Shown: one piece after another, positions 1,493 to 44,099 of the stretch
Position numbering within the stretch: the stretch's first letter is position 1
Layout: the number at the start of each line of letters is the position of its first letter
Assembly (NCBI GenBank): GCA_030272585.1
Contig: BSYQ01000012.1
Span: 3,348,001 to 3,412,000, forward strand
Reading direction: 5' to 3'
From: Bryopsis sp. KO-2023
Taxonomy: Eukaryota; Chlorophyta; Ulvophyceae; Bryopsidales; Bryopsidaceae
DNA length: 64,000 nucleotides
Notes under the pieces: model-generated
What the model saw: only the letters and a program-made list of their open reading frames with translations
What the model was told of the DNA's origin: nothing
The model's database searches: none
Program-made: the position numbers and the translations under genes

Positions 1493-1924
1493 TGTTGTGA
1501 AAAGGGCAATTAATGGAAAGGAGAGTAGTGGAAGTAGGGACATTTATTAAGGGAAATGGGGGGAATTCGAACAGAAACAGTGAACGGTTATGGACAGTCA
1601 TGTGTTAGCATAAACGTAACGGCGCAGCAGTTATAACTGTAAGCTGCGCCGTTTCGGCTGACGTTTCAGCGAAAGAGTTTTGGCGGGGACGACGAACGGT
1701 CGCACGCCAGAAACTCGCAAACCCATAAGAGAGCGAGAGTTTATTCATGTAACGAACACATTTACAGCGAGTCGCTAGAACAAAGCTTGTACTCGAGAGG
1801 TGTTCCAACCGTTGAGAGTGAAACGACGTCGAGTGGACGTCCGTAACTGCAAAATCAAAGCGAAGAGTTGTCGACAGACAAGAGACGTCTGTGCGAGACG
1901 AGATAAGATGGGAACAACACAACA
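1493..1924 (+). repeat. 5' LTR (432 bp)
   Basis: Starts TGTTGTG and ends CACAACA, with terminal inverted bases as in most LTR elements. The same 432 bases recur at 6301-6732. The start codon used for Gag (1908-1910) lies 17 bases before its end. Confidence 0.95.
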
Positions 1925-3401: not shown

Positions 3402-3429
3402 GTGGCCCCCCTTTCGACAGGAAGGGGGG
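3392..3429 (+). promoter_or_regulatory. -1 ribosomal frameshift signal
   Basis: The heptamer A AAA AAC occupies 3392-3398 in exact X XXY YYZ register with the gag-pro frame, one codon before its TGA stop. After a 7-nt spacer, 3406-3413 (CCCCCCTT) pairs perfectly with 3422-3429 (AAGGGGGG), and two inner pairs extend the stem to 10 bp. The pol frame is the -1 frame and is open through the site. This is the classical slippery-site-plus-stem arrangement used by many retroviruses and LTR elements. Confidence 0.9.
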
Positions 3430-6196
3430 TTTTGTCGAGTTGGCAGTTCAGTGGGAGCCGGAGAAGGGACATGGTTTTACGCAGAAGGATGATTGCGTAC
3501 AAGTTTTGAGCGGAAAGGCACGCTTCATCCCTCCGCACACATGGACGAAACTATACTTGCCCTTTTCGATGACTGTGTTGGGCACTGTAACACTGGTTAG
3601 TGCAATACACAGGGCCTGTGTGATTTCTGGTGTGTCTTCGACCCCTGGAGGCCAAATGCGCCTAGATGTGTACAACGCGTCAGATGAAGTACTGACGTTA
3701 ACGCCCACCACACCCGTGATTAACATTTTTGGTGTGGAAGAGTTAAGGATCACGGGGGGGACAACGCATGCAAAAAAAGTCAATGCATGCAAACTGGAGA
3801 TAACTGAAGAAACTCTGAGGAAGGAGATATGCGAGAGATTTCCTATTGTTTTTGATCATGAAGCACATGAGATAACGGAGAAGATGGCAGAAATGGCCAT
3901 CAGGAGAAATGAAGTACCTTTTCCAGAACCACCTGAACTTGGAGTACGAACACAATACGCACTGGCCAGCGCGTCAGGGAGGAGTGCTGTACAAGCCATA
4001 CTGGAAGAATACGAGAAGAAAGGATACTTAAGATCAGCGTCGAAATCTGAGTCAATATACCTCTCACCTTTACTACCGGTACTGAAGCCCAACGGAAAAG
4101 TAAGACTCACGAACGATTACAGAAAACTGAATGGATATTTCAGAACTGGTGGTACTCCTGTCACCTCCCACGCTGACTCATGGACCAAACTATGGGAGAT
4201 TGATCCCGAATGGCAGTACTTTGCCAAGGTGGATCTAAAGGATGCTTTTTTTAGTATCCCCCTATCCGATGAGATCCAGCGCTATTTCGGTTTCAGCTTT
4301 GGAGATCGTACCTTCGTGTGGAAAAGACTGCCCCAAGGATTTTTGTGGGCATCAACCTTGTTTTCTGAGAGGGCTGCTGAGGTGGTAGCAGGTTTAGCGG
4401 TACAGTTCGCGGATGACCTACTGGTGGGCGCCAGGTCACTCAAAGAGCTACGTGACAAACTGGTCCTGCTTTTCAAACGATTAGCTGAATTTGGCATGAA
4501 AGCAAACGAGGAAAAAATCGAGTGGATGAGTCAGGAAGTATCCTTCCTGGGATACCAGATTACGCCGGGCGGCTGGTCGCTAAAAAAATACTTGGATGAC
4601 CGACAGAGTGATATGGGTGATATCCGATCCTCAAAGGATCTCCAGCGTGTGATCGGTATTTTATCGTACTGTAGAAGAGCAATTCCTGACATGGAACGCA
4701 GGGTGGCACCATTACGTGCCCATGTCGCACAAGATAAAAAAAGACGTTACACCCAAGAGGAATGGCTGCGAGCAGAAAGTGATGCGAAACTAATTTTCAG
4801 GGAGGCGTTACGCGACCAGCTGCGGCTGGCGGTGCCTGGTGCGCAGGTGAATTCGTTCGTGTTAGAGACCGACTGGTCGACTGGGTTCGCAGGGTATCTT
4901 TTATTCGCTCAGGTGTCGGGAGTGGACGGACGACGTGAGGTGCTCGTAGACGTCGGCAGCTGCGTTCTGCCAGAGAAGTCGTCATCGTTCCTCGGCGAGC
5001 TTCGCGCGGTGGTATGGGCCTGCAAACGGACGAAGAAGTATAGAGGGGAGGTGGCGATGACCATCCGCACGGATAACCTGGCCCTTTGCGAGAAGCTGAA
5101 AGCGGGTGGGCTGGGTGCGACGGATGCGAGAGAGATGCGATTATGGGGTTGGTTGATGGCGAATGAGAGTAATTTTTCCACAGAGTTCGTCGCAGGATCA
5201 GAGAATATTGGAGCTGATCTATTATCGAGACCAGTGAGGGTGAATGGAGTGCAATTGAAAATGTCATTATCAGAAGATGAGTGGGATACAATCCATGAAG
5301 GGCACCCTTCAGTAAGGGGAACTCTGCTGAGAGCACAGGCTTATGGTCTACATGTGACTAAAAAGGAGGTTGAGTATCGATTAACCAGATGCAGGGCATG
5401 TCAGTCCTTTGCTCCACTCAATTCAAGGTCACCTCTGAAGTCCGTCCTAGATGCTTCTCACCCTGGAGAATTCGTTTCAGTGGATTTTATTGGAGCATTG
5501 CCAAACTCAGGTGGCTGTCGATATGTTTTCGTAATAATTGACAGCCTGAGCCGCCTAATACAAGCTACCGCAGTGACGGCTGCCACTTCAACCCACGCTA
5601 TTAAAGGACTACAAAAGTGGATCACAGATCATGGGAGGTTTGAGGGCATTTTGTGTGATAATGCCTCATCCTTTACAAGCAGGTCCTTTCGGGATTGGAC
5701 TCGGTCAGTGAATGTTACACTGGTCTATGCACCTGCATACCACCATTGGTGTAACGGTGCGGTTGAGAGGGCAAATCGGAAACTGCTTGAGCGCATGAGG
5801 AGATTACTAATTGAGGAGGGACATTGGAGATGGCACAAAGTCACTGCTCGCGCTCAATCAGCCTGCAACTCTATGCCTTGCTCAGTAACTGGGTTCACAC
5901 CTCACGAGGTGTGGTTTAAAACTCGGAGGGAATGGGAGTCAGCTCGAGCCGAGATGTCTCGACGCAGGGAATATGCTAATCGAAAAAGAAAGAAGACACC
6001 CAGTGTGTGGAAACTGGGAGATCAGGTGTGGGTGTATGATATCGTGACCAATCCCTGTTTGCGTGGAAAATTTCAGCCATTATGGGAGGGGCCTGGTGTG
6101 GTAGCTCAAGAGGTATCACAGAGTTTGTGGGGGGTGAATATGCCTAATGGCACCAGAATAGTGATGCATACTGATTTTATGAAGGAATACTTTTAG
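3398..6196 (+). CDS. pol: Pol polyprotein: reverse transcriptase, RNase H, integrase
   Basis: The frame is open from 3344 and is probably entered by frameshift at 3398, giving about 932 residues. RT motifs include LTNDYRKLN, VDLKDAFFSIPL and the catalytic FADDLLVGA (about 4406-4432). The RT has LPQG before the active site, as in retroviruses, rather than the LPFGL of most gypsy elements. RNase H shows ETDWSTG, GELRAVVWA, IRTDN and the NIGADLLSR end. Integrase has an H-H-C-C zinc finger (IHEGH ... CRAC, about 5290-5403). Its DDE core has D in VDFIG, D in CDNASSF and E in GAVERANRK. A C-terminal module ends with FQPLWEGPGVV, matching the GPY/F pattern. All key residues are present and the frame is intact, so the enzyme is predicted to be active. 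It copies element RNA into DNA and inserts it. Confidence 0.92.
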   Translation: MSGPPFDRKGGFVELAVQWEPEKGHGFTQKDDCVQVLSGKARFIPPHTWTKLYLPFSMTVLGTVTLVSAIHRACVISGVSSTPGGQMRLDVYNASDEVLTLTPTTPVINIFGVEELRITGGTTHAKKVNACKLEITEETLRKEICERFPIVFDHEAHEITEKMAEMAIRRNEVPFPEPPELGVRTQYALASASGRSAVQAILEEYEKKGYLRSASKSESIYLSPLLPVLKPNGKVRLTNDYRKLNGYFRTGGTPVTSHADSWTKLWEIDPEWQYFAKVDLKDAFFSIPLSDEIQRYFGFSFGDRTFVWKRLPQGFLWASTLFSERAAEVVAGLAVQFADDLLVGARSLKELRDKLVLLFKRLAEFGMKANEEKIEWMSQEVSFLGYQITPGGWSLKKYLDDRQSDMGDIRSSKDLQRVIGILSYCRRAIPDMERRVAPLRAHVAQDKKRRYTQEEWLRAESDAKLIFREALRDQLRLAVPGAQVNSFVLETDWSTGFAGYLLFAQVSGVDGRREVLVDVGSCVLPEKSSSFLGELRAVVWACKRTKKYRGEVAMTIRTDNLALCEKLKAGGLGATDAREMRLWGWLMANESNFSTEFVAGSENIGADLLSRPVRVNGVQLKMSLSEDEWDTIHEGHPSVRGTLLRAQAYGLHVTKKEVEYRLTRCRACQSFAPLNSRSPLKSVLDASHPGEFVSVDFIGALPNSGGCRYVFVIIDSLSRLIQATAVTAATSTHAIKGLQKWITDHGRFEGILCDNASSFTSRSFRDWTRSVNVTLVYAPAYHHWCNGAVERANRKLLERMRRLLIEEGHWRWHKVTARAQSACNSMPCSVTGFTPHEVWFKTRREWESARAEMSRRREYANRKRKKTPSVWKLGDQVWVYDIVTNPCLRGKFQPLWEGPGVVAQEVSQSLWGVNMPNGTRIVMHTDFMKEYF

Positions 6197-6282
6197 AGGG
6201 AGTGTTACATTTCAGAAGTATTAATCAGGGTATGTCCATTATAATTGCTTTTTCATTCGGAGTTTTGTGCACAGTGAAAATT

Positions 6283-6300
6283 GAGGCGGGGATGGGCACA
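6283..6300 (+). promoter_or_regulatory. Probable polypurine tract
   Basis: A purine-rich stretch (gaggcggggatggg, with one interrupting pyrimidine in each half) lies immediately before the 3' LTR. This is the expected position for the plus-strand primer. Confidence 0.5.
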
Positions 6301-6732
6301 TGTTGTGAAAAGGGCAATTAATGGAAAGGAGAGTAGTGGAAGTAGGGACATTTATTAAGGGAAATGGGGGGAATTCGAACAGAAACAGTGAACGGTTATG
6401 GACAGTCATGTGTTAGCATAAACGTAACGGCGCAGCAGTTATAACTGTAAGCTGCGCCGTTTCGGCTGACGTTTCAGCGAAAGAGTTTTGGCGGGGACGA
6501 CGAACGGTCGCACGCCAGAAACTCGCAAACCCATAAGAGAGCGAGAGTTTATTCATGTAACGAACACATTTACAGCGAGTCGCTAGAACAAAGCTTGTAC
6601 TCGAGAGGTGTTCCAACCGTTGAGAGTGAAACGACGTCGAGTGGACGTCCGTAACTGCAAAATCAAAGCGAAGAGTTGTCGACAGACAAGAGACGTCTGT
6701 GCGAGACGAGATAAGATGGGAACAACACAACA
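6301..6732 (+). repeat. 3' LTR (432 bp)
   Basis: Base-for-base match by eye to the 5' LTR at 1493-1924. It is followed by CCCCT (6733-6737), the second copy of the target duplication. Confidence 0.95.
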
Positions 6733-9535: not shown

Positions 9536-9953
9536 AGATTTGCTTGCTTTATTCATGCATCGCCACTCCAATTGTATTCGAATGGCAACTGCTGCTGGCC
9601 TCTGGCTGACTCCCCCATTTCTGACGAAAGAAATCCTCGGCCAGCCCAACGTAGCTCGCGGGGTACAGTACCTTGTGAGGCTTCGGATAGAATTCGGAGG
9701 CGGCGTTGGAGGGCAGACGTGGGGACAAGCATCAAGTTGTGCGGCCGCGTTGGATGTCGACGCTTCGAAGCAAAATCGTGCCTGATGGCGGCTGTTCCAA
9801 AGTCCTGCGCTGACCTGCGACGTCCTTGTCTGCACAACTGTCGCATCCTCGATTCAGAGCCACGGCTTAAAAGAACGCAACGCCCAGTTTCTGCAACAAC
9901 GGATCCTCACAGCAACATCTCTTTCTATTTCATTCAGTGCGAAGCTTGGCTCA
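9530..9953 (+). promoter_or_regulatory. Conserved upstream region of secreted-protein copy 1
   Basis: About 400 bases between gene X and the secreted-protein gene are recognisably conserved upstream of all five family members. A TTAAAA motif at 9867-9872 lies 82-87 bases before the ATG. Equivalent TTAAA motifs precede the other copies at about 30802, 35285, 37909 and 43732 (minus orientation), 82-90 bases from their start codons. This spacing suits a TATA-like core promoter. The divergent layout suggests a shared regulatory region for gene X and the secreted protein. Confidence 0.55.
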
Positions 9954-10506
9954 ATGGTGCCGCTGAAGTTTGTGACCGGTCTGGCTTTGCTGGGGCTCGT
10001 GGGAACTGCATATGGACTCGAGACTCTCGAGCTGAAACGCAGCACAGGTGAACATACACAAGTTTTTGGGTGGTGCCAATCGGAACGACATGGCAGAATT
10101 CGTGACCTTTCTCTGATCGAAGAGTTGATTTCAGTTGTGTGTGTTTGTGCAGATCTGGAGTTGCTTGCGGCGGCCGTGCCCCATGTCCGTACTTTGCTGA
10201 CCGGCGCGCCGAGTTTGAACAGTGAGTTACTGAATTGGTCGCGCTACTGTTAATTCTTATCGGTTTGTGTAACGGCTGAGAGTGGCGCATTTGTTAATAG
10301 ACCGTGATCTTCTGGGAAGGAGACACAAACCCGGCTATGGAAGGAAAAGGTCTTATGGAAAGAAATACGGAAAGAAATACGGCGGCCATAAAAAGAAATA
10401 CGGCGGCCATCGGAGGAAATACGGCGGCCATGGATACAAAAAGCACTATAAAAAGAAGAGCGGCAGTGAAAGGAAACATGGCGGCCATGAAAGGAGCGGA
10501 CACTAG
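9954..10506 (+). CDS. Small secreted cationic protein, copy 1 (KKYGGH repeats)
   Basis: Three exons: 9954-10047, 10153-10221, 10283-10506, giving 128 residues. Exon 1 encodes a clear signal peptide (MVPLKFVTGLALLGLVGTAYG), so the product should be secreted or enter the secretory path. Exon 2 is a short linker. Exon 3 begins with a conserved RDLLGRR motif and ends in a Lys/Tyr/Gly/His-rich tail with the repeated unit KKYGGH, very basic and without cysteine. Donors are GTGAAC and GTGAGT. Acceptors are TGTGCAG and GGCTGAGAG, and phases agree in all five copies. The RR after LLG could be a processing site. Composition resembles glycine-rich antimicrobial or matrix/adhesive proteins, but this is inference. 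I do not recognise the family. Confidence 0.8.
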
Positions 10507-10567
10507 TGACTTTCTGCTGTTGCGCCGCGGCCCAACAAGGTTTGGTTGGCAATGATCCAAAGCGGCA

Positions 10568-10592
10568 GTCGTTGAGTTGTGATTCGTATCGC
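10568..10592 (+). promoter_or_regulatory. Conserved 3' element of the secreted-protein family
   Basis: The phrase gtcgttgagttgtgattcg followed by tatcgc, ending at 10592, lies about 62 bases after the stop codon. It recurs nearly unchanged after the stop of all other copies (minus strand): 30075-30099, 34563-34587, 37094-37118 and 42990-43014. Coding tails differ more than this element does, which suggests a functional 3' UTR or processing signal. Confidence 0.6.
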
Positions 10593-10722
10593 TTTTTTGA
10601 TCCTACTTTTTTTTGAAATGACTTTGAATGAGAGGCAGTGGGAGTGGCAGAAATTCGTGTTCAACGTCCGTATGTCCGTCCACTGAAATCGGTTTTTCTC
10701 TCAACGATTTTCTGGAAGCAGT

Positions 10723-10911
10723 TACCGTAAATGGGGTAATGTTTGCGCGCATGAACTTTCGCGTGTTTTATTTTTGCGACACTAATTTTTGCGATTCAAT
10801 CAGGTCGCAAAGGGCCCAGGGTTCAGGAACCCAATTTTTGCGACACTAATTTTTGCGATTTTTCCTACTCGCAAAAATTAGTCCAACGCAGAAATTAACC
10901 TATCTACGGTA
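10723..10911. mobile_element. MITE with TA target duplication
   Basis: A 185-bp insert (10725-10909) is flanked by TA on both sides. Its ends are imperfect inverted repeats of about 27 bp: the left begins CCGTAAATGGGGTAAT and the reverse complement of the right begins CCGTAGATAGGTTAAT. Inside, tttttgcgacactaattttt occurs twice and an inverted gcaaaaattagt once. The four paralogous secreted-protein units have the uninterrupted sequence gcagttataatgca, a natural empty site. TA duplication and size suit a non-autonomous Tc1/mariner-type element. Confidence 0.85.
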
Positions 10912-12425
10912 TAATGCAAGGGTTTATCCAGGAACCACTTTTTTGTCACGAGCTCTTAGCCAGAGAGTAGTATTTGATTCTGAATGGTCATGATCGTTTA
11001 GAATGATCATTTGGTCATTTGGACTTTTGGTTCCTAGTTTGCAGTTACTACGAGCTCAGTTTTTACCAGTTTTTTTACTTTGTTTTCAACATTTTTGCTT
11101 ATAAAGTAGATTAGATAGTTTTTTGATTCGTTTGGTTACAACAATCTTGAAGACCAAGTTTTTTTTTTAGAGTTGACGGTGCACTTCTTTTTTGGCATCT
11201 TGGAATTGGATCAACAATTTTTTGAGAGAAAAAGAGGAGTTTTTTTGTTGTGTGATTGTGTGGATCCGAGAACAATCAATCCTTTTTAATACTTTTTTCT
11301 CAACTCAAACAGGATTTTAAATCTATTTTTTCAGATAACAATAACAAGAGCAAGAAATATGCCAACTGGAATTGGCATATGTTTTATGTTGAAAACCTTG
11401 GGATTGCCCTGCATGTCTTCCCTCTGTGCACATACTGCAACTAGTGATTGCAGGAAAAACGAGATGGCGCCTTTCGCTCGACACATTTTTCATTTTTGTT
11501 TCTGCCAACAACTTCTCTTTGTGCAGTCCTTGTTTCGCTGTTTACACGTAAAAGCAGGCAATCCTTTCAAAGAAAGGATTCACTGTAATTCATGTTGTGT
11601 GAGGGTGCGTTGCTACTCATATATGTAATTATATCAATGTATGTATTTTTAGAAGTTATCTTTAAAAATAAAAGTTCGGAAATCGAATTACGTCACTGCA
11701 GCTGTCTTGTTACAAAACGAGGGAGAGTCGATTATGGTTTCGTAGAACACATTAATAATGGGTTAGTTTCCTTTACTATGTATATACATATACATTTTTT
11801 TTTTTGGCCCCGAAAGTTGGGGCTTCTTGGGAGCCAGCTGGAGAAAAGAAATCCAACACCAGTGAGTAGCATAAAATGAACAAAATAAAGCCACAACACA
11901 GAGAAAAAACTGACAAAGGCAATGCCATGATTACAAACAATAATCCATTCCCCCCACTTCCCCCGAAAGAAAAGTCAACAATAAAAAGATCCACAAAGCA
12001 GCAATTTCATATGCTTTCTCATAGCAAGTTCTCTGGAAACAAAACCAACCCTACTCGCTCCCCCCCCCAAAAAAAAAAGAATAATCAAAGCAAAAGGCCA
12101 ATCGAACTTCTGCACCGAACCATCCCCTTTTCCAACAAAAATCCGCTTTTTTTTTTCAAATTCCACTTGTTTTGCCACCCAACCCCTCTCCGTTCAATTT
12201 TAATCAAGGCATCATGTGGACCCTTTGACTTTAACGAAACATAATCCTTGAATTACTTTTTGCGACAAGATATTCCAGTCTTGTTCATCCTGCGGGCCCC
12301 AAGTGGGGCCCAGCCCTTGAAGCCGTTTGAATTTGTCTTCCTAGAAAAAAAAAAAAAAAACAAAAACAAAAACATAAAAAAAAGAGCATTTCTTCTTGGA
12401 ATATTCATGTTGAGAAATTATGAAG
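10912..12425. other. 3' flank shared with the 29-44 kb array, then low-complexity DNA
   Basis: From about 10912 to 11730 the sequence is an inverted relative of 29170-29930 and 42000-42840, for example the aggaaccactttt, gatcatttggtc and aaccaagtttttttt phrases. It is therefore part of the duplicated unit. From 11800 to 12425 I see A/T- and C-homopolymer-rich DNA without a supported gene. Confidence 0.6.
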
Positions 12426-28681: not shown

Positions 28682-30163
28682 GTCAACCGATTTTGGTAAA
28701 ATTGTGTGTTTCTCGCGTGTAAAAAGATTAAGATTGAAAAATGCCCCCAAGGTCAACGAAGGAATGATTGAGCACCAAGCTGTCAAAAAATTGCAAAAAG
28801 TGTTAATTGGCACCTCATCTTGTTTACTATTTATTGCCGAAAACTTTTTCTTTTTGAGAAAACTTTTTTACTCTCAGAGCGAAAAGCAAGATATTTTTTT
28901 CCTATGCACTCATAAATCCATGTACAGTTTGTGCATGGGTGGGAAGACATGCACACCAGTCCCAAGGTTAGAATATATATTTCTCTGATCTTCCCCTCTT
29001 CAGATATGTTCACCAATAACATAACTTCCACTCAACCAAATTTGGCTTTTGAAAAGGGCATTAAAATTTGTTTTCGGATCGATCCAATCACAACCCAGTC
29101 CCCACAATTCATACACAATCCAGTGTGCATTATTTATTTCTTCCTAGTTGATATTTATTTTTGAAAGAGTGCATTTAATCGACTCTCCCTCGTTCTGTAA
29201 GAAGACGACTGCAGTAATTCGATTTTTATTTTTATTTTTCTTGGTTTGAAAAGATATATATATATATATATAACTTTTTAAAATGTATCCATCCAAATAT
29301 AATTATATTTGTGTACATGAAATACAGGGAATCTTTTTTTTTTTGAAAGGCGCCATCATGTTTTTTCCTGCAATCAGTATGTGCAAAGAGGAAAGACATG
29401 CAAGCCAATCCCAAGGTTTTTCCCCTGACCATATGCCAATCCCAGTTGCAGAACATAGATATTTTCTCTCTTAAAAATAAGAGAGGGAGCTGAGAAAAAA
29501 GTATTAAAATTTGTTCTCGGATCCACACAATCACAATCCAATGTTTGCAAGCAACACAAAAAACTCATCTTTCTTTCTAAAAAATTGTTGATCCAATTCC
29601 AATATACCAAAAAAGAAGTACAAAAAAAAACTTGGTCTTCAAGATTGTTGTAACCAAACAAACCAAAAAACTATTTAATCTACTTTATAAGCAAAAATGT
29701 TGAAACTCAAGAAAGTAAAAAAACTGGTAAAAACTGGTGAGCTCATAGTAACTGCAAACTAGGAACCAAAAGTCCAAACGACCAGATGATCATTCTAAAC
29801 GATCATGATCATTCAGAATCAAAATCGACTAAATAAAACCACCCCTGACAATTCTTGCCACACTCCCTGCTCTCTGGCTAAGAGCTCGTAATAAACCGTA
29901 AGTGGTTCCTGGAAAAACCCTTTTTATTGAAACCAGTGCATTATAACTGCTTCCAGGAAATCGTTGAGAGAAAAACCGATTTCAGTGGACGGACATACGG
30001 ACGCTCAGCACGAATTTCTGCCACGCCCACTGCCTCTCATTCAAAATCATTTCAAAAAAAGTTGGATCAAAAAAGCGATACGAATCACAACTCAACGACT
30101 GCCGCTTTGGATCATTGCAAACCAAACCTTGTTGGGCCGCGGCGGCGCAACAGCAGAAAGTCA

Positions 30164-30720
30164 CTAGTGTCCGCTCCTTCCATGGCCGCCGTGTTTCCTT
30201 TCACTGCCGCTCTTCTTTTTATAGTGCTTTTTGTATCCATGGCCACCGTATTTCCTCCTATGGCCGCCGTATTTCTTTTTATGGCCGCCGTATTTCTTTC
30301 CGTATTTCTTTCGATAACGCCTTTTCTGTCCATAGCCGGAGTTGTATCTCCTTCCCAGAAGATCACGGCCTATTAACAAATACGCCACTGTCAGCCGTTA
30401 CACAGACAGATAAGAATTAACAGTAGGGCGACCAATTCAGTAACTCACTGTTCAAACTCGGCGCGGCGGTCAGCAAAGTACGGACATTGGGCACGGCCGC
30501 CGCCCCCAACTTCGAATCTGCACAAACACACAAAATCGAAATCAACTCTTCGATCAGAGAAAGGTCACGAAGGTGTTTGCCATGTCGTTCCGATTGGCAC
30601 CACCCCAAAAACTTGTGTAGGTTCACCTGTGCTGCGCTTCAGCTCGAGAGTCTCGAGTCCATATGCAGTTCCGAGGAGCCCCAGCAAAGCCAGACCGATC
30701 ACAAACTTCAGCGGCATCAT
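30164..30720 (-). CDS. Small secreted cationic protein, copy 2 (KKYGGH repeats)
   Basis: Exons 30627-30720, 30449-30517 and 30164-30387 give 128 residues. The signal peptide starts MMPLKFVIGLALLGLLG, the conserved RDLLGRR follows in exon 3, and the basic tail repeats KKYGGH and ends GHGRSGH. It is nearly identical to copy 5 at 43 kb, including 3' flanks. A probable AATAAA poly(A) signal lies about 230 bases after the stop (near 29930). Function unknown; predicted secreted. Confidence 0.8.
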
Positions 30721-31440
30721 CGAGACAAGATTCGCACTGAATGAAATAGAAAGAGATGTTGCTGTGAGGATCCGTTGTTGCAGAAACTGGGCGTTGCGTT
30801 CTTTTAAGCAGTGGCCCCGAATCGAGGATGCGACAGTTGGGCAGACAAGAACGTCGCAGCCCAGCGCAGGGCTTTGGAACAGGCGCCATCAGGCACGATT
30901 TCGCTTTGAAGCGTCGACATTGAAAGCGACCGCACGCGCTGATACCCGCCCACACGTCCGCCCTCCAACGCTGCCTCCGAATTCTATCCGAAGCCTCACA
31001 AGGTACTGTAGCCCCCCAGACCCCCGGTACGTTTGGGGCGGCCGAGGATTTCTTTTGTCAGAAATGGGGGGGTCAGCCAGAGGCCAGCAGCAGTTGCCAT
31101 TCGAATACAAAGTTCTATCGGAGTGGCGATGCATGAGTAAAGCAAGCAAAATATATCTCAAATCTCTGTCGCAAACTCTAGTTTGTTGTCGTTTGCTGCC
31201 ACCACACAACAAACCATCTTAGCAAAGGCGGGGGGCGTTCAGATGCAAAGCACGCCACGCAGCCAGAATCGATGGAGTTTTTTTTGTTGCTCGAGTGGAT
31301 CAAAACACTGGTCAATTCGAACCCCGTTCTTTCATGATGCGCATGATGTAGAAACACCTATTGAAAAACCTGGCAATTCTCCTCCACAATGTAATTTTAT
31401 GTTTGGTTGTTTGGTTGAAAAAATTGGTTTTCCTCAAACC

Positions 31441-31590: not shown

Positions 31591-32689
31591 GAAAATGGAA
31601 TATGTTCAAATTGTTTGAAATATCTTCCCTTTATGCCCCCCCCCTCCTATCTTTTTTTTGGGTGTATATGGATGAAGGAAAAACAAAATTGAATTCTTCC
31701 TGGTGTGTGTGTGCGACCCCTGGTGGGGATGCTTTCTTTCTATTCGAGCCGTTCATCGATCGCTTGAAAAAGGTGTTCATTGATTCATGATTCACTGATA
31801 AAAAATGACAGGAGATGGAACGCTTGTTGGTGATGCTGCAAGATAACTTTTTTATAACTAATGTGTAGATATTTTTCTGGGACGCTGCCAGTTTCCTTTG
31901 CTCTATTTTTTTTTGCAGGGGAAATAATTCAGGCTGAATTGGATGTCAGGGAAGTGTACCCTCATACAGATTAAAATAAATAAATGAAAATAAAACGCCA
32001 TATGTAAAAACACAAATTTAATCGACATGTGCCCCTGTATCACAGAACAGTTGCTTTTGGACAACTCTGCTTGTGATGGGTAGCTGTTTGGCTGCCAGAC
32101 TATTAGTAGCTTTGTTTTTCCTTCATCAATGGAATTCCATCACTTCGAAAACAGTAATTCCACTGATCTCCTGCTCTTCCGACCCCGTTGTTTTCAAGAC
32201 GTGGAGGAGATAATGTCGCCACAGTCGATCGACCCTGCGTTTCTTGCAAGGTTTTGATCAGCATCGCAACGCGGCCAAGGCCACTTCGGCAAGCGAAAGC
32301 AACGCTCCCCATATTTCTTCCGGGACGAGTTGAAGGTCTGAAGCCTATGAGCCGTTCTTATCAAAACATATTCTTTCCGAAATCGTTATTTTTCTTCAAG
32401 GGTTGCAGGGTTGCGTCGACTCCAGGCAGCCCTTTCACTCAAACACGCTCGGCGAGCCCGTCGACGGTTAAAAACCGACGAACTGTGATGGCAGCGGTCA
32501 ATACCACCCACATTGAAAAACAAAGCACGCGAAAATGAAAACGCGGAGGCGGAGAAACATTATGCGACGAATCGGGCGAGCGGATGATCCCGCTAATCGC
32601 GTTTCCCCACCCAAACACGCTAAGTGTAAAAACATAAGGAGGAAAAACATTTATGATTACACGTCGAGCGGAGTTTTCCATTAAAGTTA

Positions 32690-32992
32690 CACTAAACCGA
32701 CGTCCCGCGCCTAGTGCCGGGATTAGCGCCCACCAAGTCCCTCGGGGGAGATGTCGGTGACGTGTAATCTTCCCCGCCGAGAGAGGCTTTGAGCGGGTCT
32801 ATTGGCTCGTGCGCGGGGGTGCGACCCGGACGCGTTGTCGTTCCGGGAGCGGGTAATCTCGGCGGGGTCGATATCGGTTGAAGTTTTTTTTCCCGCTTCC
32901 ATTAGGGGTTTTTCTCTTCTAAAAAAGAAAAAGGCGATTCGTCGACGGGACGATCTTAGGGGTTCGAACCCCCTAATCGCCTTTGATTTTAT
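32690..32992 (+). ncRNA. Structured RNA with ENE-like element and tRNA-like 3' minihelix, copy I
   Basis: The 5' part is GC-rich with strong pairings: ACCGAC 32696-32701 with GTCGGT 32753-32758, and an 11-bp stem 32772-32782 with 32857-32867. Next comes an ENE-like element: GAAG (32880-32883), eight T (32884-32891), CCC (32892-32894), loop, GGG (32906-32908), TTTTTCT (32909-32915), CTTC (32916-32919). It is followed by the A-rich tract 32921-32932. GAAG pairs with CTTC and CCC with GGG, so the two U-rich stretches face each other. Directly after this is a 51-nt tRNA-like fold. It has acceptor GGCGATT/AATCGCC (32933-32939 with 32975-32981), hairpin 32940-32952, and T arm AGGGG-TTCGAAC-CCCCT (32958-32974). 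Copy II is identical but for about four substitutions. This order matches MALAT1/MEN-beta 3' ends. Identity as an RNA is inferred. Confidence 0.65.
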
Positions 32993-32999: not shown

Positions 33000-33939
33000 C
33001 TTTCGAAAGGTCGATCGATAATCTACTTAGTCCCTCGGACCCTTTTCTTATTCTCCCTTCGAAAAAACTTGAGTTGGATAAACATGTTGTTCAAGAATTG
33101 CCAAAACTTTAAAGCTTCTTTCCGTCCTACTTTATGGTTAGTTTTTTTTTTTATTTTTTAATATAAGGCTAGGTAACCTGATTTTTTTTAATGTTCAATG
33201 GCTGAAGTTCAGTGAATTTCTTTGTACAAAGTTAGGTGACTTCGTTAGTAATGTGGAGTGATATATCAGTTGGGCATTTTACTTAATCGTCACATATGGT
33301 GGAATATGAAAGACGACGTTGAATTGAAGTCTTTAGTCTCTCTTTTTTTTTTTTTTTGGTTGTTGTAGTAGTCATTCTTTTTTAGAAAGATTAGGAGGCG
33401 ATGGTAGTCCAAGAACGAACTGAAGTTGTCAATAAATAAAATCGTTAAATAGGTTCAGCGCCCGTTCGACTGTTCTGATTGGGGAAAACTCCCCCAGCGA
33501 AAAAACAATAACAATAAATCGACAGCGCCAGAAATAATAATGAGTAAATTAATCAACTGAATCTGCGTGCGTCATTTCGGGAGTGGATTTTTCCCCACTA
33601 AGAAATCATTTATAACAAGCAGCTCCACAGCAGTTCAAATGGTGTTGCTCAATCTGAACCTCCCATTTACATGTCTGGTGAACAGAGTGGCCTTCTGGTA
33701 GGACAGATTTCTCTGAATCCCAGTTTTCTATTAAAAAAAAAAGAAAATCACCTTCAAACAAAAGCCTGATGCAGCCGGAAACTGTGGATAGAAAAACAGC
33801 CCAGATAATACTTTCTATTGATGTCAACACTTATTTTTGAAAACCACATTTTCTTGCTCAGCCACTACAAGAGTCAGTAACAAGAAGTCCCATCATAAGG
33901 GGCCTTCCAATAGCACCCAGAATAGATATTGTTTTTGAT

Positions 33940-34560
33940 TGAAACAAAAAAATAAAAATATGACAATTCAAACAAAAGAGTAGTTTATAAATTACAAGCA
34001 CACCACAACAAACGAAATTCAAATCCAAAAACAAAAAAGTGTCTTGTAAATCCAAAAAACCAAAAGAAACCTGTTGTGCTTCTTTTTGTACGATTGAAAA
34101 AAATAAGTGTAGTAGACAAAAAAAAGCCTGGTATTATATTGTAACCACAGAAATCATAAGCAATTCAGTCAGTAAACAAAAATGTTGAAACTGGGAAGCC
34201 CACAGTTCTTGCGAACTAGGAACCACAAGCAGATCATCTCGCGACCAAATGATCAGTTCGAGTGATTCTGACCATTCAGAATCAAATCAACCAAATCCCC
34301 TGGCACTTTTCGATGCAATCCCTACTCTCTGCTTGAGAGCTCATAAACAAGTGGTTCCTGGAAAAATCTTTTAATGAAATCAGAACATTATAACTGCTTC
34401 TAGCAAATCATTGCGACACAACGAGGCTGATTTCAACGGACGGATATACGGCCATATTTGATGCCGTACTCACAAGAATTTCACGAGTTTCTGCCCACAG
34501 CCTCTCAATCAAAATCATAAAACAAGCAAGCTTCAAAAAAGTCGAAACCAAGAATCAAAA
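33940..34560. other. 3' flank of secreted-protein copy 3
   Basis: This is diverged family 3'-flank sequence: aaaatgttgaaactggg, the aggaaccac phrase, gatcat-rich inverted repeats and gtggttcctggaaaaatc. No gene is seen. Confidence 0.5.
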
Positions 34561-34644
34561 AAGCGATACGAATCACAACTCAACGACTGTCTCTTCGGAT
34601 CAATGCCGACCGAACCTGGGTCGCGGCACGATAGCAGAGAGTCA

Positions 34645-35196
34645 CTAACGTCTGCCGCCATTCCCGCCGTTTCCTCCTTTCCCTCCTCCTTTTCCACCTT
34701 TGCCTCCTTTGCCTCCTTTTCCGCCTTTACCTCCTTTCCCTCCTTTTTTGCCGCCACCGTCGCCGCCATCCCCACCTCTCCCGCCTTTTCCGCCTTTTCC
34801 ACCTTTCCTACCTCTCCTTCTCAAAAGGTGGCGTCCTGTTGACAAGCACTCTTAGCGGTAATGGATATATAAATCGAATCGACAGTAGGGCATTTAATTC
34901 GGGAACTCACTGTGAAAGCTTGGCCAGGCGCTCAGCAAAGTACGGAAATGGGACACAGCCACCGGTGGCAACTTCAAATCTGCACGCACAAACACCGTGA
35001 ATCCATCAACCCCTTGATTTGGAAGGTCACAAAGGTGTGGCTGGCTGGGATTTCCTTCTGGACGGAACGGGGCGTACACCCCAAAAACTTGTCGATGTTC
35101 ACCTGTGCTGCGTTTGAGCTCGAGCGTTTCGAGTCCATATGCAGTTCCGAGGAGCCCCAGCAAAGCCAGGCCGATCACGAACTTCAGCGGCACCAT
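34645..35196 (-). CDS. Small secreted cationic protein, copy 3 (GGK repeats)
   Basis: Exons 35103-35196, 34911-34979 and 34645-34850 give 122 residues. The signal peptide (MVPLKFVIGLALLGLLG) and linker match the family. Exon 3 starts at a shifted acceptor (CTAAG|AG) because about 5 bases are missing relative to the other copies, and the shift restores frame. The tail is almost pure Gly/Lys (KGGKGG units with a GGDGGD patch) and unrelated in sequence to the KKYGGH tails. Predicted secreted and strongly basic; function unknown. Confidence 0.75.
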
Positions 35197-35759
35197 TGAG
35201 GCAAGATTCGCACTGAATAAACAGAGGGTAAAAAGAAATGTCGCTGCGAGGATCTATTATTGCAGAAGCTGGGGCAAGCAGGATTTTAAACCGTGGCCAT
35301 GCATCAAGGATGCGACAGATGTGCGGACACGGACGTGTGCATTCGTGCAGCGTCGTATCGGGTGAAATGCATTCGTGGGGAAAGGTATAAACGTCAGACT
35401 CTGGAACAGAAGCTATCAGGCGCGAATTCGCTTCGAAGCGTCGACATCGAATGCGACCGCCACTGTACGTGGCACGTTGATACTCGCACCTCCTCCTCCG
35501 AATTCTATCCGAAGTCGCACAAGGTACTGTACCCCCCCAGCTACGTTGGGCCGGCCGAGGATTTTTTCTCAGATGCAGATTTTAATATATAGACTGTAGG
35601 CAGAACTGTCAGCAGTAGCCCAACAGTTGGTGCATCCATGCACACAGACAATATTACATCCATGGCAGCAGTGGATCTCTTTCATTCACTCTTCCTGTGA
35701 AAAACTTGTTCAAGAAGAAATAAAACAAGTGTTTCTCTGACAATTAAACTGTGAAGACT

Positions 35760-36827: not shown

Positions 36828-37175
36828 ACGACATGTAAAATAAACAAAATTAACCAAACCAAACCAATCAACTCAATCCCTACTCTCTGCTTAAGAGCTC
36901 AAAGACAAATGGTTCCTGGAAAATCCTTTTAATAAATCAGTGCATTATAACTGCTGCTGAGAAATCATTGCGGGGCTGTTTTCACTGAATGGAAATACGG
37001 CGGCACTCATACCGCAACCAAAGGAATTTCCCACAGCCTCTCATTCAAAATACTCAAAATACGCTTAAAAAAAAGTTAACAATAATCAAAAACGCGATGC
37101 GAATCACAACTCAACGACTGTAACTTTGGATCGATGCCGACCAAACCTGGGCCGCGGCACTATACCAGAAACTCT

Positions 37176-37819
37176 TTAATGCTTGCCCTTTCCACTGCCG
37201 CTGTGCTTTCCGTGGCCGCTCTTCTTCCACCTTCCAGAGCCGCTCTTCTTTCCCTTTCCGCTCTTTTTCCCCTTTCCGCCTTTTCCATGTTTCCAGCCCT
37301 TCCCACCTTTGCCTCCCTTTCCGCCTTTACCTCCTTTTCCGCCTTTGCCTCCCTTTCCTCCTTTGCCTCCCTTCCAGTGCTTCCATTTTTTCCCGCCTTT
37401 CCAGCCTTTGTGTCCTTTTTTCCAGCGTCTCTTTCCCAGAAGATCACGGCCTGTTAAGAAATACGCCACTTTCAGCCGTCAGATAAACAGATACGAACCA
37501 ACAGTGTTAGCGCGAAGAATTCTGTAACTCACTGTTCAAATTCGGTGCGGCGGTCAGCAAAGTACGGACATGGGGCTCCGTCGACGTTGGCAACTTCGAA
37601 TCTGCACACACAAAAAACCGCGACTCCATCAACCCTTCGATCAGGAACGCCACAAAGGTGTCGCCGCCTGGGATTTCCTTCAGGTCGGAAAGCGGCGTAC
37701 ACCCCAAAAACTTGTGGATGTTCACCTCCGCTGCGTTTCAGCTCGAGCGTTTCGAGTCCATATGCAGTTCCCACGAGCCCCAGCAAAGCCAGGCCGATCA
37801 CAAACTTCAGCGGCACCAT
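37176..37819 (-). CDS. Small secreted cationic protein, copy 4 (GGK repeats, longest)
   Basis: Exons 37726-37819, 37533-37601 and 37176-37468 give 151 residues. Signal peptide MVPLKFVIGLALLGLVG and exon 3 motif GRDLLGKR are conserved. The tail begins KKGHKGWKGGKKWKHWKGG, continues with many GGK repeats and ends in Ser/Gly/Lys/His units. Tryptophans are present, unlike in copy 3. Repeat number differences give the family its length variation. Predicted secreted; function unknown. Confidence 0.78.
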
Positions 37820-38310
37820 TGAGACAAGATTCGCACTGAATAAAATAGAGGGTAAAAAGAAACGTTGCTGCGAGGATCCGTTGTTGCAGAAGCTGGGGCT
37901 TGCAGGAATTTAAGCCGTGGCTGATGGATCGAAGATGCGACAGTTGTGCGGACAACGACGTGTGCGTCCATGCAGCGTCGTATCGCGTGGAACGCAGCTC
38001 AGCGCAGGACTTTGGAACAGGCGCCATCAGGCACGATCTTGCTTCGAAGCGTCGACATCAAATGCGACCGCACGCGCTGATACTTGCCCACACGTCGGCC
38101 CTCCAACGCCGCCTCAGAATTCTATCCGAAGTCGCACAAGGTACTGTCCCCCCCCAGGTACGTTGCAGAGGCCGAGGATTTTCTTTCGTTAGAAATGGGG
38201 GAGTCACCGATAGGCGAATTGCCCCACATCTACTCTTCGATGGGGATCAAATACGTAGTCGAATAGAAAGTTCCATTGGAGTGGCGATGCTTGAGTGAAG
38301 CAAGCAAAAT

Positions 38311-39535
38311 ATGTCTCAAATCTCTGTCACAAGCTCTAGTTCCAACAATCTGAAGTGTTGTGTTGAGAAACCTGTCCACCATCTCAGCAAAGGCGGGGGG
38401 CGTTCAGATGCAACGCACGCCACGCAGCCAGAATCGATGGAGTTTTTTTTGTGCTCGAGTGGATCAAGAAAATGGTCAATTAGAACCCCGTCCCTTCATG
38501 ATGCGCACCACACAGAAACAACACATTGGCTCCTCGATACAGTCCGAAAAAAGCAGAAGTGACCCACCTTCTGTTCGTCAGCTGATGAATCCAACGAGTC
38601 ATTCGCCCAGCAGAATGCTTGGACTGTGCGCAGTTTTGTACAGCAATGGCTAAAACTTTGAGAACTCACTTCAGGAGCAGAGCACATGGGTCAATTCATG
38701 TTGAAGTTTGGTTTCTAGGTTCAACCTAGCATGTTGAGAATTGCTGCTTGCATGTTTAGGTGAATAGTTTTACGATCGTGTGGAGGGGGAGTGTGAAAAT
38801 CTGCTGGATATTTTTTTAAATAAATTCCAGGAGCAAGAGGAACGGTAACTAATCCTGTCTCACTGGCAACAGAAATTTTTGTGTTTGATAACTATCAAAC
38901 CATGAAATTTAATCATAATCAAGAGGGGGAGCCAGGCACACCACGAAACAGTGCTGCCAGTTTTAAGTTCTCAAATATTTTTTTTCCAGATGAACACTTG
39001 GTAAAGGATTTAAATCACACATTTATGAATGCTTTCCCTGACTTACATTGGTAGTTTTGTTCCGTTTCGTGCAGCAACAATGAAAATCATAAAGCTGCTG
39101 GTTACGTTATGCAGCTCCACAGCTGATCAAAACTTATTTCATGCATTTGACCATCATTACCGTTTGTTTTGAGGCGCTTACACATTTTTTCCCAAACAGA
39201 GCAATGCTGTTTTTTTGTTAAGACCCAAAAAATCCCGATTTGCAGCTCCTCATTCTAATTCCCTCTTTTCAATGTTTGTTTAGGTATTTTTTAATCATTT
39301 ATGTTTTGACCTGATATGGTCGTGGTGGTGAAGGGATATTCCTGACAGTTTTATTTGGTTTGGTTGGGATTCCAACCATCACAGATCAGTTTTCAATAAT
39401 AAATCAAAAAAACTGTTGAAAAAATTGGTTATTCTCAAACCTAACGGCTTGATTTCCGAAGCTGCTTCTTTTCTTGAGAGCAACAGGAAATTGGCAAACA
39501 TGCCAATATATAAACAAGACATTCTGCATTGAAAT
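38311..39535 (+). pseudogene. Gene X remnant in block II
   Basis: A start-like ATG at 38311 (MSQISVTSSSSNNLK) aligns with the region just upstream of gene X exon A in the 9-kb unit. After about 1.1 kb the exon A homologue (ISEAASFLESNRKL, about 39447-39490) appears, then runs into a stop. The region between has no supported exon, so the gene is probably broken. Confidence 0.5.
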
Positions 39536-40692: not shown

Positions 40693-40995
40693 CACTAAAC
40701 CGACGTCCCGTGCCTAGTGCCGGGATTAGCGCCCACCAAGTCCTTCGGGGGAGGTGTCGGTGACGTGTAATCTTCCCCGCCGAGAGAGGCTTTGAGCGGG
40801 TCTATTGGCTCGTGCGCGGGGGTGCGACCCGGACGCGTTGTCGTTCCGGGAGCGGGTAATCTCGGCGGGGTCGATACCGGTTGAAGTTTTTTTTCCCGCT
40901 TCCATTAGGGGTTTTTCTCTTCTAAAAAAGAAAAAGGCGATTCGTCGACGGGACGATCTTAGGGGTTCGAACCCCCTAATCGCCTTTGATTGTTT
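40693..40995 (+). ncRNA. Structured RNA with ENE-like element and tRNA-like 3' minihelix, copy II
   Basis: This is the same element as 32690-32992, offset by exactly 8,003 bases with no indel. The few differences seen are at copy I positions 32708 (C to T), 32741 (C to T), 32751 (A to G) and 32874 (T to C). None falls in the 11-bp stem, the U-rich/A-rich element or the tRNA-like fold (acceptor 40936-40942 with 40978-40984). Sequence on either side differs more, with substitutions and indels. This uneven conservation supports selection on the RNA, or a very recent conversion of this segment. Confidence 0.65.
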
Positions 40996-43078
40996 TTTTT
41001 TCTTTCGAAAGGTCGATCGATAATTTGTTCGGTCCCTCGGACCCTTTTCTTATTCTCCCTCCAAAAAAACTTGAGTTGGATAAACATGTTAATTGCCAAA
41101 ACTTTAAAGCTTTAACCTCTCTTGAAGTCTTACTTTATACCTCTTTGTGATTTTTGTTGAAAAAATATATAAGGCTAGGTAACCTGATTTTTAGCAATGT
41201 TAATAGCTCAAGTTCAGTGAAATTTCTTGGTATCAAGTCATGTGACTTTAATGTTTTGAGTGATATATCAGTTGGGCATTTTACTTCGTCGGCACTTGGA
41301 CAACTTTGGTGATGAAAAATGACGTTGAATTCAAGTCTCTAGTCACTCTTTTTAAACAAAATTAGGAGACAATGGTACTTCAGTAGAGTAACTCTACAGA
41401 ACGAACTGAAGTCGTTACAAAATTAAAAGTTGTCGCCGAAAACGTTAAATGGGTTCGGCGGCCGTTTGGCTGCACCACCACCGATTCTGAAGGGGGAAAA
41501 CTCCGACAGCGAAAAAGAAAAAAAAATTGACAACGCCGGAAATGATGACTGAATTTATCAACTGCATCTGCATGCATCATTTCAGGAGTCTTTCTAAACC
41601 CCACTAGAAAAATAATTCATAACCACCAGCTCCACAGCAGTTTAAATGGTGATGCTCAATCTGAACCTCCCATTCACATGTCTGGTGAACAGAGTGGCCT
41701 TCTGGTGGAACAGATTTCTCTGAATCCCAGTTTTCTAAATAAAAAAACCACCTTCAAACCACCTTCTGCAACCGGAAACTGTGGATAGAAAGACAGCCCA
41801 GATAATACTTTCTATTGATTTCAACACTTCTTTTTGAAAACCACATTTTCTTGCTCAGCTACTACAAGAGTCAGTAACAAGAAGTCCCATCATAAGGGAC
41901 TTCCAATAGCACCCAGAATAGATATTGTTTTTGCGTTTTTCTTCTTACTTGATATTTATTTTTGGAAGAGTGCATCTTGATTAAGAACTCTCCCTCGTTT
42001 TATAGAAAACTACAATAATTCGATTTTTAATTTTTTTTTCTTGGTTTAAAATACTGTATCCATTTTTATAATGTATCCATCCAAACATAATTATATTTGT
42101 GTACACGAAATACAGGGAATCTTACAAACATACATAATTATAATAACATCCGAAGATGCCGCCCAGCAAAAGGCAGAACAAAGACTGCCAAAGAGAAGTT
42201 CTTGACAAAACACGGGCGGAAAAAAACGTGTCAAGCGAAAGGCACCATCATGTTTTTTCCTGCAATCAGTATGTGCAAAGAGGGAAGACATGCAAGCCAA
42301 TCCCAAGGTTTTTCCCCTGACCATATGCCAATTCCAGTTGCAGGAATATAGATATTTTCTCTCTTAAAAATAAGAAGAGGGAGCTAAGAAAAAAGGATTA
42401 AAATTTGTTCTTGGATCCACACAATCACAATCCATTGTGTTCGCAAGCAACACAACAAAAAGAACTCCTCTTTCTCTCTCAAAAAATTGTTGATCCAATT
42501 CCAATATACCAAAAAAGAAGTGCACAGTCAATAATTCAGAAAAAAAAACTTGGTCTTCAAGATTGTTGTAACCAAACAAATCAAAAAACTATTTAATCTA
42601 CTTTATAAGCAAAAATGTTGAAACTCAAGAAAGTAAAAAAACTGATAAAAACTAAGCTCATAGTTTATGCAAACTAGGAACCAAAAGTCCAAACGACCAG
42701 ATGATCATTCTAAACGATCATGATCATTCAGAATCAAAATCGACTAAATAAAACCACCCCTGACAATTCTTGCCACACTCCCTGCTCTCTGGCTAAGAGC
42801 TCGTAATAAACCGTAAGTGGTTCCTGGAAAAACCCTTTTTATTGAAACCAGTGCATTATAACTGCTTCCAGGAAATCGTTGAGAGAAAAACCGATTTCAG
42901 TGGACGGACATACGGACGCTCAGCACGAATTTCTGCCACGCCCACTGCCTCTCATTCAAAATCATTTCAAAAAAAGTTGGATCAAAAAAGCGATACGAAT
43001 CACAACTCAACGACTGCCGCTTTGGATCATTGCAAACCAAACCTTGTTGGGCCGCGGCGGCGCAACAGCAGAAAGTCA

Positions 43079-43644
43079 CTAGTGTCCGCTCCTTCCATGG
43101 CCGCCGTGTTTCTTTTCACTGCCGCTCTTCTTTTTATAGTGCTTTTTGTATCCATGGCCGCCGTATTTCTTTTTATGGCCGCCGTATTTCTTTTTATGGC
43201 CGCCGTATTTCTTTCGGTATTTCTTTCGATAACGCCTTTTCTGTCCATAGCCGGAGTTGTATCTCCTTCCCAGAAGATCACGGCCTATTAACAAATACGC
43301 CACTGTCAGCCGTTACACAGACAGATAAGAATGAACAGTAGCGCGACCAATTCAATAACTCACTGTTCAAACTCGGCGCGGCGGTCAGCAAAGTACGGAC
43401 ATGGGGCACGGCCACCGCCGCCGGCAACTTCGAATCTGCACAAACACAAAACCGAAATCAACGCTTCGATCAGAGAAAGGCCACAAAAGTGTGGCGTCGA
43501 TTTCCTTCCGATCGGCACGCAGCGCCCACCCAAGATTAGTGTATGTTCACCTGTGCTGCGTTTGAGCTCGAGCGTTTCGAGTCCATATGCAGTTCCAAGG
43601 AGCCCCAGCAAAGCCAGGCCGATCACGAACTTCAGCGGCACCAT
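43079..43644 (-). CDS. Small secreted cationic protein, copy 5 (KKYGGH repeats)
   Basis: Exons 43551-43644, 43364-43435 and 43079-43302 give 129 residues; exon 2 is one codon longer than in copies 1-4. Signal peptide MVPLKFVIGLALLGLLG, RDLLGRR and the KKYGGH tail are as in copy 2. An in-frame upstream stretch could extend the N terminus to about 43692, but the conserved ATG at 43644 fits all copies. Predicted secreted; function unknown. Confidence 0.8.
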
Positions 43645-44099
43645 TGAGCCAAGCTTCGCACTGAATGAAATAGAAAGAGATGTTGCTAGCACAGTGAGGA
43701 TCCGTTGTTGCAGAAACTGGGCGTTGCGTTCTTTTAAGCAGTGGGTCTGGATCGAGGATGCGACAATCGAGCAGACAGGGACGCGTGCGTCTTGGCAGCG
43801 TCGTGTCGGGTGGAACGCAGGTCAGCGCAGCACTTTGGAACAGCCGCCATCAGGCACAATTTCGCTTCGAGGCGTCGACATCCAACGCGGCCGAACAACT
43901 TGATGCTTGTCCCCACGTCTGCCCTCCAACGCCGCCTCAGAATTCTATCCGAAGCCTCACAAGGTACTGTACCCCGCGAGCTACGTTTGGATTTCTTTCG
44001 TCAGAAATGGGGAGGCAGTTGGACCAATGCACTCTATCTGTGATCGAATAAAAATTCTCATTGGAGTAACGATGCATGAATAAAGCAATCAAAACAGAA

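Follow-up and report, generated by a model that had tools for sequence, protein, structure and literature searches.

In MALAT1 and MEN-beta/NEAT1, a stem, a U-rich strand, an upper stem, a second U-rich strand, an encoded A-rich tract and an adjacent tRNA-like fold follow one another in this order. Bryopsis sp. KO-2023, a giant-celled, siphonous ulvophycean green alga, carries the same order of elements, raising the question of whether a green seaweed forms RNA 3' ends of the MALAT1 type. The initial annotation had read the locus in this way and spoken of a protist genome, although Bryopsis is a chlorophyte green seaweed and not a protist in the narrow sense. Among the open-licence papers listed in a literature search, none showed an algal or plant case of a MALAT1-type end. 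In using the tRNA-processing machinery for their maturation, NEAT1 and MALAT1 are called "unlike any other known lncRNAs" in a 2025 study (PMC12941219), and MALAT1 is described as absent from lampreys (PMC10869381).

The window (the whole 64,000-nucleotide stretch analyzed here) belongs to a 3.63-Mb contig that also bears a retroelement and a 5'-nucleotidase gene, and on that account we rejected a mitochondrial t-element as the identity of the module. The multi-megabase contigs with module copies are taken as nuclear. One protein encoded in the window is 100% identical to BSKO_12774 of Bryopsis sp. KO-2023. Elsewhere in the window, 1493-6732 holds an LTR-type retroelement whose direct repeats, identical and 432 bp long (1493-1924 and 6301-6732), enclose a weak protease-like match and reverse transcriptase and integrase frames. 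Another repeat, gene-like and with internal repeats of 9 bp, is present in tandem and inverted copies (9539-11534, 29137-31343, 34316-35573, 36874-38507 and 41938-44018). When six window ORFs, four of them inside copies of this repeat, were scanned against Pfam, none of the six matched.

The module and its tRNA-like ending

All features of the module lie on the forward strand. The ENE-like part opens with GAAG (32880-32883), which forms a lower stem with CTTC (32916-32919). Enclosed by this stem are a first U-rich strand, U1, consisting of eight T (T8, 32884-32891); an upper stem (32892-32908) in which CCC (32892-32894) and GGG (32905-32907), with a fourth G at 32908, flank the ten-nucleotide loop GCTTCCATTA; and a second U-rich strand, U2, with the sequence TTTTTCT (32909-32915). 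A single T separates CTTC from the encoded A-rich tract AAAAAAGAAAAA (A6GA5, 32921-32932), which directly adjoins the tRNA-like fold. Reading the bases confirms each of these elements as the initial annotation had described them.

The predicted tRNA-like small RNA (32933-32982) contains three helices and no anticodon arm. Its 7-bp acceptor (32933-32939/32975-32981, GGCGATT and AATCGCC) encloses a 4-bp D-like hairpin (32940-32943/32949-32952, CGTC-GACGG-GACG), the stretch ATCTT and a 5-bp T-arm (32958-32962/32970-32974, AGGGG and CCCCT). The T-arm loop, TTCGAAC (32963-32969), is of the TTCRANY type, and a T at 32982 serves as discriminator. RNAfold returns the acceptor, hairpin and T-arm for 32933-32983 at -22.6 kcal/mol (z -2.40), an energy reached by 5 of 200 shuffles. 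A descriptor for a 12-bp minihelix with a TTCRANY loop matched twice on the two strands of the window, at this site and at 40936, where a second copy had gone unreported. The same descriptor matched 12 times in 100 dinucleotide shuffles of both strands, and none of those 12 matches followed an A-rich tract. An ordinary tRNA gene was rejected: ARAGORN reports no tRNA in the window, Rfam has no tRNA match there, and the fold is no cloverleaf with an anticodon arm.

The covariance search that the initial annotation had suggested gave no support for a mascRNA. Across the genome, the mascRNA-menRNA model (Rfam RF01684) produced 28 matches up to E 10, none over the cut-off and none at the 24 loci described below, with 68 of 24081 first-look candidates scored; in the window, neither this model nor other Rfam relatives matched.

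Comparison among copies argues for the fold; the initial annotation had looked to further homologous copies for pairing support. In 18 distinct rows, 96.9% of cells in the tRNA-like helices are paired, and compensatory changes are found in all three helices. The acceptor changes on both sides at 5-45 (A-U to G-C, one row) and 6-44 (U-A to C-G, five rows), the D-like helix at 9-19 (G-C to A-U, one row) and the T-stem at 27-41 (G-C to A-U, one row), so that three of the four two-sided pairs depend on a single row each. Five covariation measures on these rows were reached by 0, 5, 0, 7 and 0 of 500 shuffles, a comparison that kinship among sequences can beat even without structure, and all slid controls scored lower. 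The 18 rows omit 6 of 24 copies, namely three duplicates of listed rows, two copies with a 1-nt deletion (contig 4, 5.895 Mb) and the contig 5 copy with a 3-nt insertion; an earlier count, on 17 rows with a deletion copy among them, gave weaker values (8, 120, 20, 103 and 6 of 500 shuffles). Compensatory changes in three helices and the stop of conservation at its 3' border lend strong support to the tRNA-like part, and we regard its status as a selected structure, judged by comparison of copies, as secure.

A dispersed family and its conserved unit

The tRNA-like family comprises at least 24 full-length copies on seven contigs. As lower bounds, five lie on contig 12, two on contig 9, three on contig 14, three on contig 6, seven on contig 4, three on contig 10 and one on contig 5; the window holds two of them (32933 and 40936). 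A 34-base pattern allowing up to three mismatches recovered 23 copies, compared to none for the reversed pattern, and a further search added the copy at 3234033 of contig 10. A DNA similarity search returned 22 matches, some of which are fragments of one copy. When a covariance model built from 17 distinct rows among the family copies was applied to 38 sources, it identified 24 full-length tRNA-like folds with scores of 47.8-82.9 bits, the fold at 32933 scoring 82.9. At least nine A occur in the 12 nucleotides ahead of the fold in 19 of the 24 copies. One locus on contig 8 is a decayed ENE/A-tract relative without the tRNA-like fold, and one 32-base pattern had no exact copy in viral_contigs.

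The second copy in the window repeats the whole module (40883-40985, with its tRNA-like part at 40936-40984) 8 kb downstream of the first, within a tandem gene cluster, and the last 69 nt of the two are 100% identical. On contig 4, two copies lie downstream of tandem arrays, one with 57 or more 126-bp units (L021, 2826-10000, reaching the end of the locus) and one of 11.5 units of 124 bp (L020, 3824-5253); in both, A/T-rich repeats of ~57 bp are closer to the module than the arrays. These array-bearing units are possible repeat-bodied lncRNAs. At 5.895 Mb on contig 4 (L024, 4900-5560), two inverted, divergent tRNA-like copies stand ~450 bp apart, each behind a double pyrimidine-rich ENE-like domain. 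The contig 5 copy sits 95 kb ahead of dozens of near-identical tRNA matches (2.78-3.77 Mb), many spaced ~3.2 kb, of which one was read as a tRNA-Ile with a TAT anticodon. Eight tRNAs of the genome that we inspected are Ile and Lys.

Conservation extends upstream of the module. Contigs 12, 9, 14 and 6 carry 13 copies, of which we aligned nine (W1, W2, L009-L014 and L016, omitting the three contig 6 copies and L015) to delimit a conserved unit at 32200-32982, with the tRNA-like fold as its 3' edge. In 25-nt bins, identity is 0.70-1.00 from 32183 to 32982, including 0.91-1.00 over 32733-32982, and falls to 0.49 in the following bin. Mean column identity is 0.946-0.968 in the ENE, A-tract and tRNA-like parts, 0.873 upstream and 0.515 downstream. 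Between some copies, upstream homology extends ~1.4-1.7 kb. Conservation that lies upstream and ends at the tRNA-like fold fits an RNA gene whose end is made by processing.

The conserved unit has no reading frame common to all copies. In the last 850 nt, no ATG frame of at least 50 aa is found in all 13, and L017 and L018 contain none at all; a coding frame common to the family was therefore rejected. Minus-strand frames starting MEAGK (53-76 aa) are present in 10/13 near-identical copies. The family units thus appear to be non-coding, as far as their frames can tell, and small shared frames could still be peptides. A TATA search found no box common across contigs.

The region ahead of the ENE is structured. 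Positions 32640-32932 fold with -111.5 kcal/mol (z -2.20), and the 240 nt ahead of the ENE form a structured domain. Folding and a 10-copy alignment place an 11-bp closing stem (32772-32782/32857-32867) around 32772-32867; the alignment keeps this stem, with a G-U change at two pairs. Covariation in the domain is uninformative (1 of 85 pairs) because the domain is nearly invariant. Downstream of the module, a trailer hairpin, GTCC-CTC-GGAC, followed by CC and TTTT (33030-33046), is a candidate end signal. Its element [GA]GACCC is found at +73 to +106 in 13/13 copies on contigs 12, 9, 14 and 6 despite the diverged flank; 11 of these copies have a 5' arm that reads GGTC or AGTC, and in ten the element has TTTT behind it (the three contig 14 copies lack it). 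The trailer element may end transcription.

Proposed processing at the tRNA-like fold and the case for a triple helix

We propose that the unit is transcribed on the forward strand, probably by RNA polymerase II. RNase P, probably a protein-only PRORP, would cut on the 5' side of the tRNA-like fold at 32932/32933, and RNase Z would cut on its 3' side, after 32982. CCA could then be added to the released RNA; the initial annotation had foreseen a CCA-tailed RNA of 51 nt, whereas the predicted size is ~50 nt before CCA. The long RNA, with its predicted 3' end at 32932, would finish in the encoded A-rich tract and carry no poly(A) tail. This tract would fold back into the U-rich loop, with TTTTTCT in Watson-Crick pairs with AGAAAAA (32926-32932) and T8 in the groove as the Hoogsteen strand, in a register that pairs U32909 with A32932 and places U32891 beside the upper stem. 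In this arrangement, the end would be shielded from 3' exonucleases. Transcription, both cuts, the triplex and the stability of the RNA are steps that we infer from the genome.

A search for the predicted enzymes gave one PRORP match over the cut-off (contig 4, 4591031). No RNase P RNA match was found in a search that was uninformative. According to one paper, land plants use PRORP in place of an RNA-based RNase P, Chlamydomonas relies on one PRORP and lacks an RNP enzyme, and in plants the tRNA-like folds that border mitochondrial mRNAs are cleaved by PRORPs (PMC10941002).

The vertebrate-like order claimed for the window site recurs in its relatives, as 12 of the 13 copies that contigs 12, 9, 14 and 6 carry have an intact ENE, A-tract and tRNA-like fold. 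In the thirteenth (L019, contig 6), an insertion after U2 splits the ENE, and CCC/GGG is present before the insertion. All 12 intact copies have the same U2 and the CCC/GGG upper stem, and AGAAAAA is found in 13/13. The lower stem varies, being CAAG/CTTT in two intact contig 6 copies and GAAG/CTTT in two contig 9 copies. T8 varies in one way only, to TTCTTTTT, in four copies (L012, L013, L014 and L016; two on contig 9 and two of the three on contig 14). In the proposed Hoogsteen strand, the C of TTCTTTTT faces G32927-C32914, which holds the only G of the tract, and a C+.G-C triple needs a C at that point. However, TTCTTTTT is also a perfect antiparallel complement of AAAAAGAA, so that a triplex is not the only structure that the T-to-C change would fit.

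Tract lengths and complementarity give a mixed picture. A5 is retained in 8 of 8 copies, T5 in 7, A6 in 5 and T8 in 4 (the other four carry TTCTTTTT), compared to 0-1 of 8 for each of four control T runs of six or more downstream, and other short runs in the unit are likewise stable. The initial annotation had pointed out that TTTTTCT complements AGAAAAA, C-G pair included; the match is exact, yet shuffling produces a 7-nt complement by itself in 155 of 1000 cases at the window site and in 80-175 of 1000 at the six copies with T8 on contigs 12 and 14, and such a complement is not rare in T-rich sequence. A U-rich internal loop complementary to the A-tract, with a compatible Hoogsteen strand, is present in 12 of 13 copies, the complementarity alone being not beyond chance. 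Folded alone, the ENE half is thermodynamically unremarkable (z +0.63), a value that does not discriminate a triplex from nothing because RNAfold does not score triplexes. The ENE is not kept across all family members: by eye, the contig 4 copies have a weak or rearranged form (near 5.9-6.3 Mb a pyrimidine-rich domain that is double, near 3.3 Mb a GTTT opposite AAAC), and the copies on contigs 10 and 5 have no recognizable one.

The U-rich strands also have a competing partner. A purine element, AAGGAGGAAAAAC (32636-32648), is able to pair with U2 or U1. In nine of the ten rows of the consensus fold, U2 pairs with this element; the remaining row, L017, was truncated at that point when it was extracted. 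As a two-strand duplex, U2 is more stable with the purine element than with the A-tract (-11.8 versus -3.9 kcal/mol), and forcing it onto the A-tract costs the whole fold 2.2 kcal/mol (-109.3 versus -111.5). Together with distant copies that retain the A-rich run and tRNA-like fold with no clear ENE, these results speak for an end made by RNase P and RNase Z without any triplex, in which the A-rich end would be a short, protein-bound encoded tail and the U-rich strands would pair with the purine element in the structured domain. In the contig 6 copies where the element was found (L017 and L019), however, its AAAAA is changed to AAATAC and AAATGC while U2 and the A-tract are unchanged, which favors the ENE reading from two copies of one cluster. 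In addition, the T-to-C changes fall exactly where the triple requires a C. We consider an end without a triplex unlikely, and a triplex at the module plausible. The MALAT1-like interpretation of the initial annotation is partly supported, in the tRNA-like part and in the order of ENE and A-tract; against it stand the most distant copies, which lack the ENE, and the rival pairing, which folds better by standard energies.

Three further explanations address the family or the module as a whole. The unit might be a non-autonomous transposable element and the module its RNA-stability element, like plant and fungal transposon ENEs, which are strongly linked to LTR elements in one study (PMC12501189). 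At least 24 dispersed copies, the inverted pair on contig 4 and two contig 14 copies with ~1.8 kb in common and unrelated flanks suit such an origin. However, the 13 copies share no frame of at least 50 aa, the two contig 14 units that we inspected by eye show no target-site duplication, and copies are locally clustered, with two contig 12 copies in a tandem-duplicated region. The ENEs known from transposons work on a poly(A) tail and are not known to have a tRNA-like partner. Overall, a transposon seems improbable. Alternatively, the fold could be part of a Pol III-transcribed, tRNA-derived gene or SINE, with the T-arm as B box and the remainder as flank, since GGTTCGAAYCC matches the B box consensus and T runs follow the module in several copies. 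T runs of five or more are Pol III stop signals, and such runs directly upstream of the tRNA-like fold, which would terminate Pol III, make this polymerase unlikely. The trailers have no T run at one common place and no A box is apparent, both by eye; the negative ARAGORN and Rfam results and the upstream conservation that ends at the tRNA-like edge also count against a Pol III gene, which we disfavor and hold to be very unlikely. Finally, in favor of a chance meeting of A/T tracts and a hairpin in a homopolymer-rich genome, the region has many T and A runs and the 7-nt complement alone is not rare. For the tRNA-like part, chance is refuted by the shuffled minihelices, none of which lay behind an A-rich tract, by the empty reversed-pattern control and by the compensatory changes; as an account of the whole module, it has next to no probability.

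Given these results, we lean toward the reading that the module is a MALAT1/MEN-beta-like 3' end of a nuclear, apparently non-coding family, probably of independent origin, with a ~50-nt RNA released by RNase P and RNase Z and a triplex-protected lncRNA end. A broader version of this reading, which we rate barely above an even chance, describes a second, independent MALAT1-type 3' end: a green-seaweed lncRNA family whose ends would be set by tRNA enzymes, with PRORP replacing RNA-based RNase P, and capped by a triplex on the encoded A-tract, and in which long tandem-repeat arrays would have replaced the RNA body of some members but left the tRNA-like ending in place.

Relation to known 3'-end systems

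If the MALAT1-like reading is true, an A-tract triplex together with a tRNA-like cutting signal would be a solution reached by convergence for the ends of stable nuclear RNAs that lack adenylation, and 24 natural variants in one genome would make the rules of cutting and protection testable. The MALAT1-type 3'-end trick may then have arisen twice.

Several known systems share parts of this architecture. The ENEs and double ENEs of plant and fungal transposons, such as Arabidopsis Evade, likewise provide a U-rich internal loop for an A tract and occur in the green lineage. According to the Evade study, however, that ENE binds a poly(A) tail added after transcription, whereas in Bryopsis the genome encodes the A-tract and a tRNA-like fold comes after it; the term "tRNA-like" is absent from the main text of that study (PMC12501189). 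In plant mitochondria, tRNA-like folds called t-elements set RNA ends through RNase P and RNase Z, followed by CCA addition (PMC11658184 and PMC10941002). As described there, t-elements form the ends of mitochondrial mRNAs and rRNAs, are homologous to tRNA genes and are described with no ENE named, whereas the Bryopsis contigs are taken as nuclear. The TripHelMasc elements of lizard and fish genomes are, like the Bryopsis copies, dispersed multicopy cassettes with a triple helix and a mascRNA. They are read as duplicates of the vertebrate MALAT1 element (PMC10869381), whereas the Bryopsis loci have no mascRNA model match.

The closest parallel in layout remains MALAT1 and MEN-beta themselves, with which the Bryopsis units also have in common that they are apparently non-coding. 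The G of the Bryopsis A-tract faces a C, so that one C+.G-C triple is possible in four copies, and MALAT1 has one. MALAT1 combines nine U.A-U triples with that one C+.G-C triple, according to one report (PMC11411715), making ten triples compared to seven Watson-Crick pairs in Bryopsis. The Bryopsis module further differs in belonging to a green alga, in being multicopy, in a fold without an anticodon-like arm and without a mascRNA-menRNA match, and in a 5' cut that would probably be made by PRORP and not by an RNP RNase P. Because the mascRNA model has no match at these loci, the module is probably convergent: it would work like the MALAT1/mascRNA family without being a member of it.
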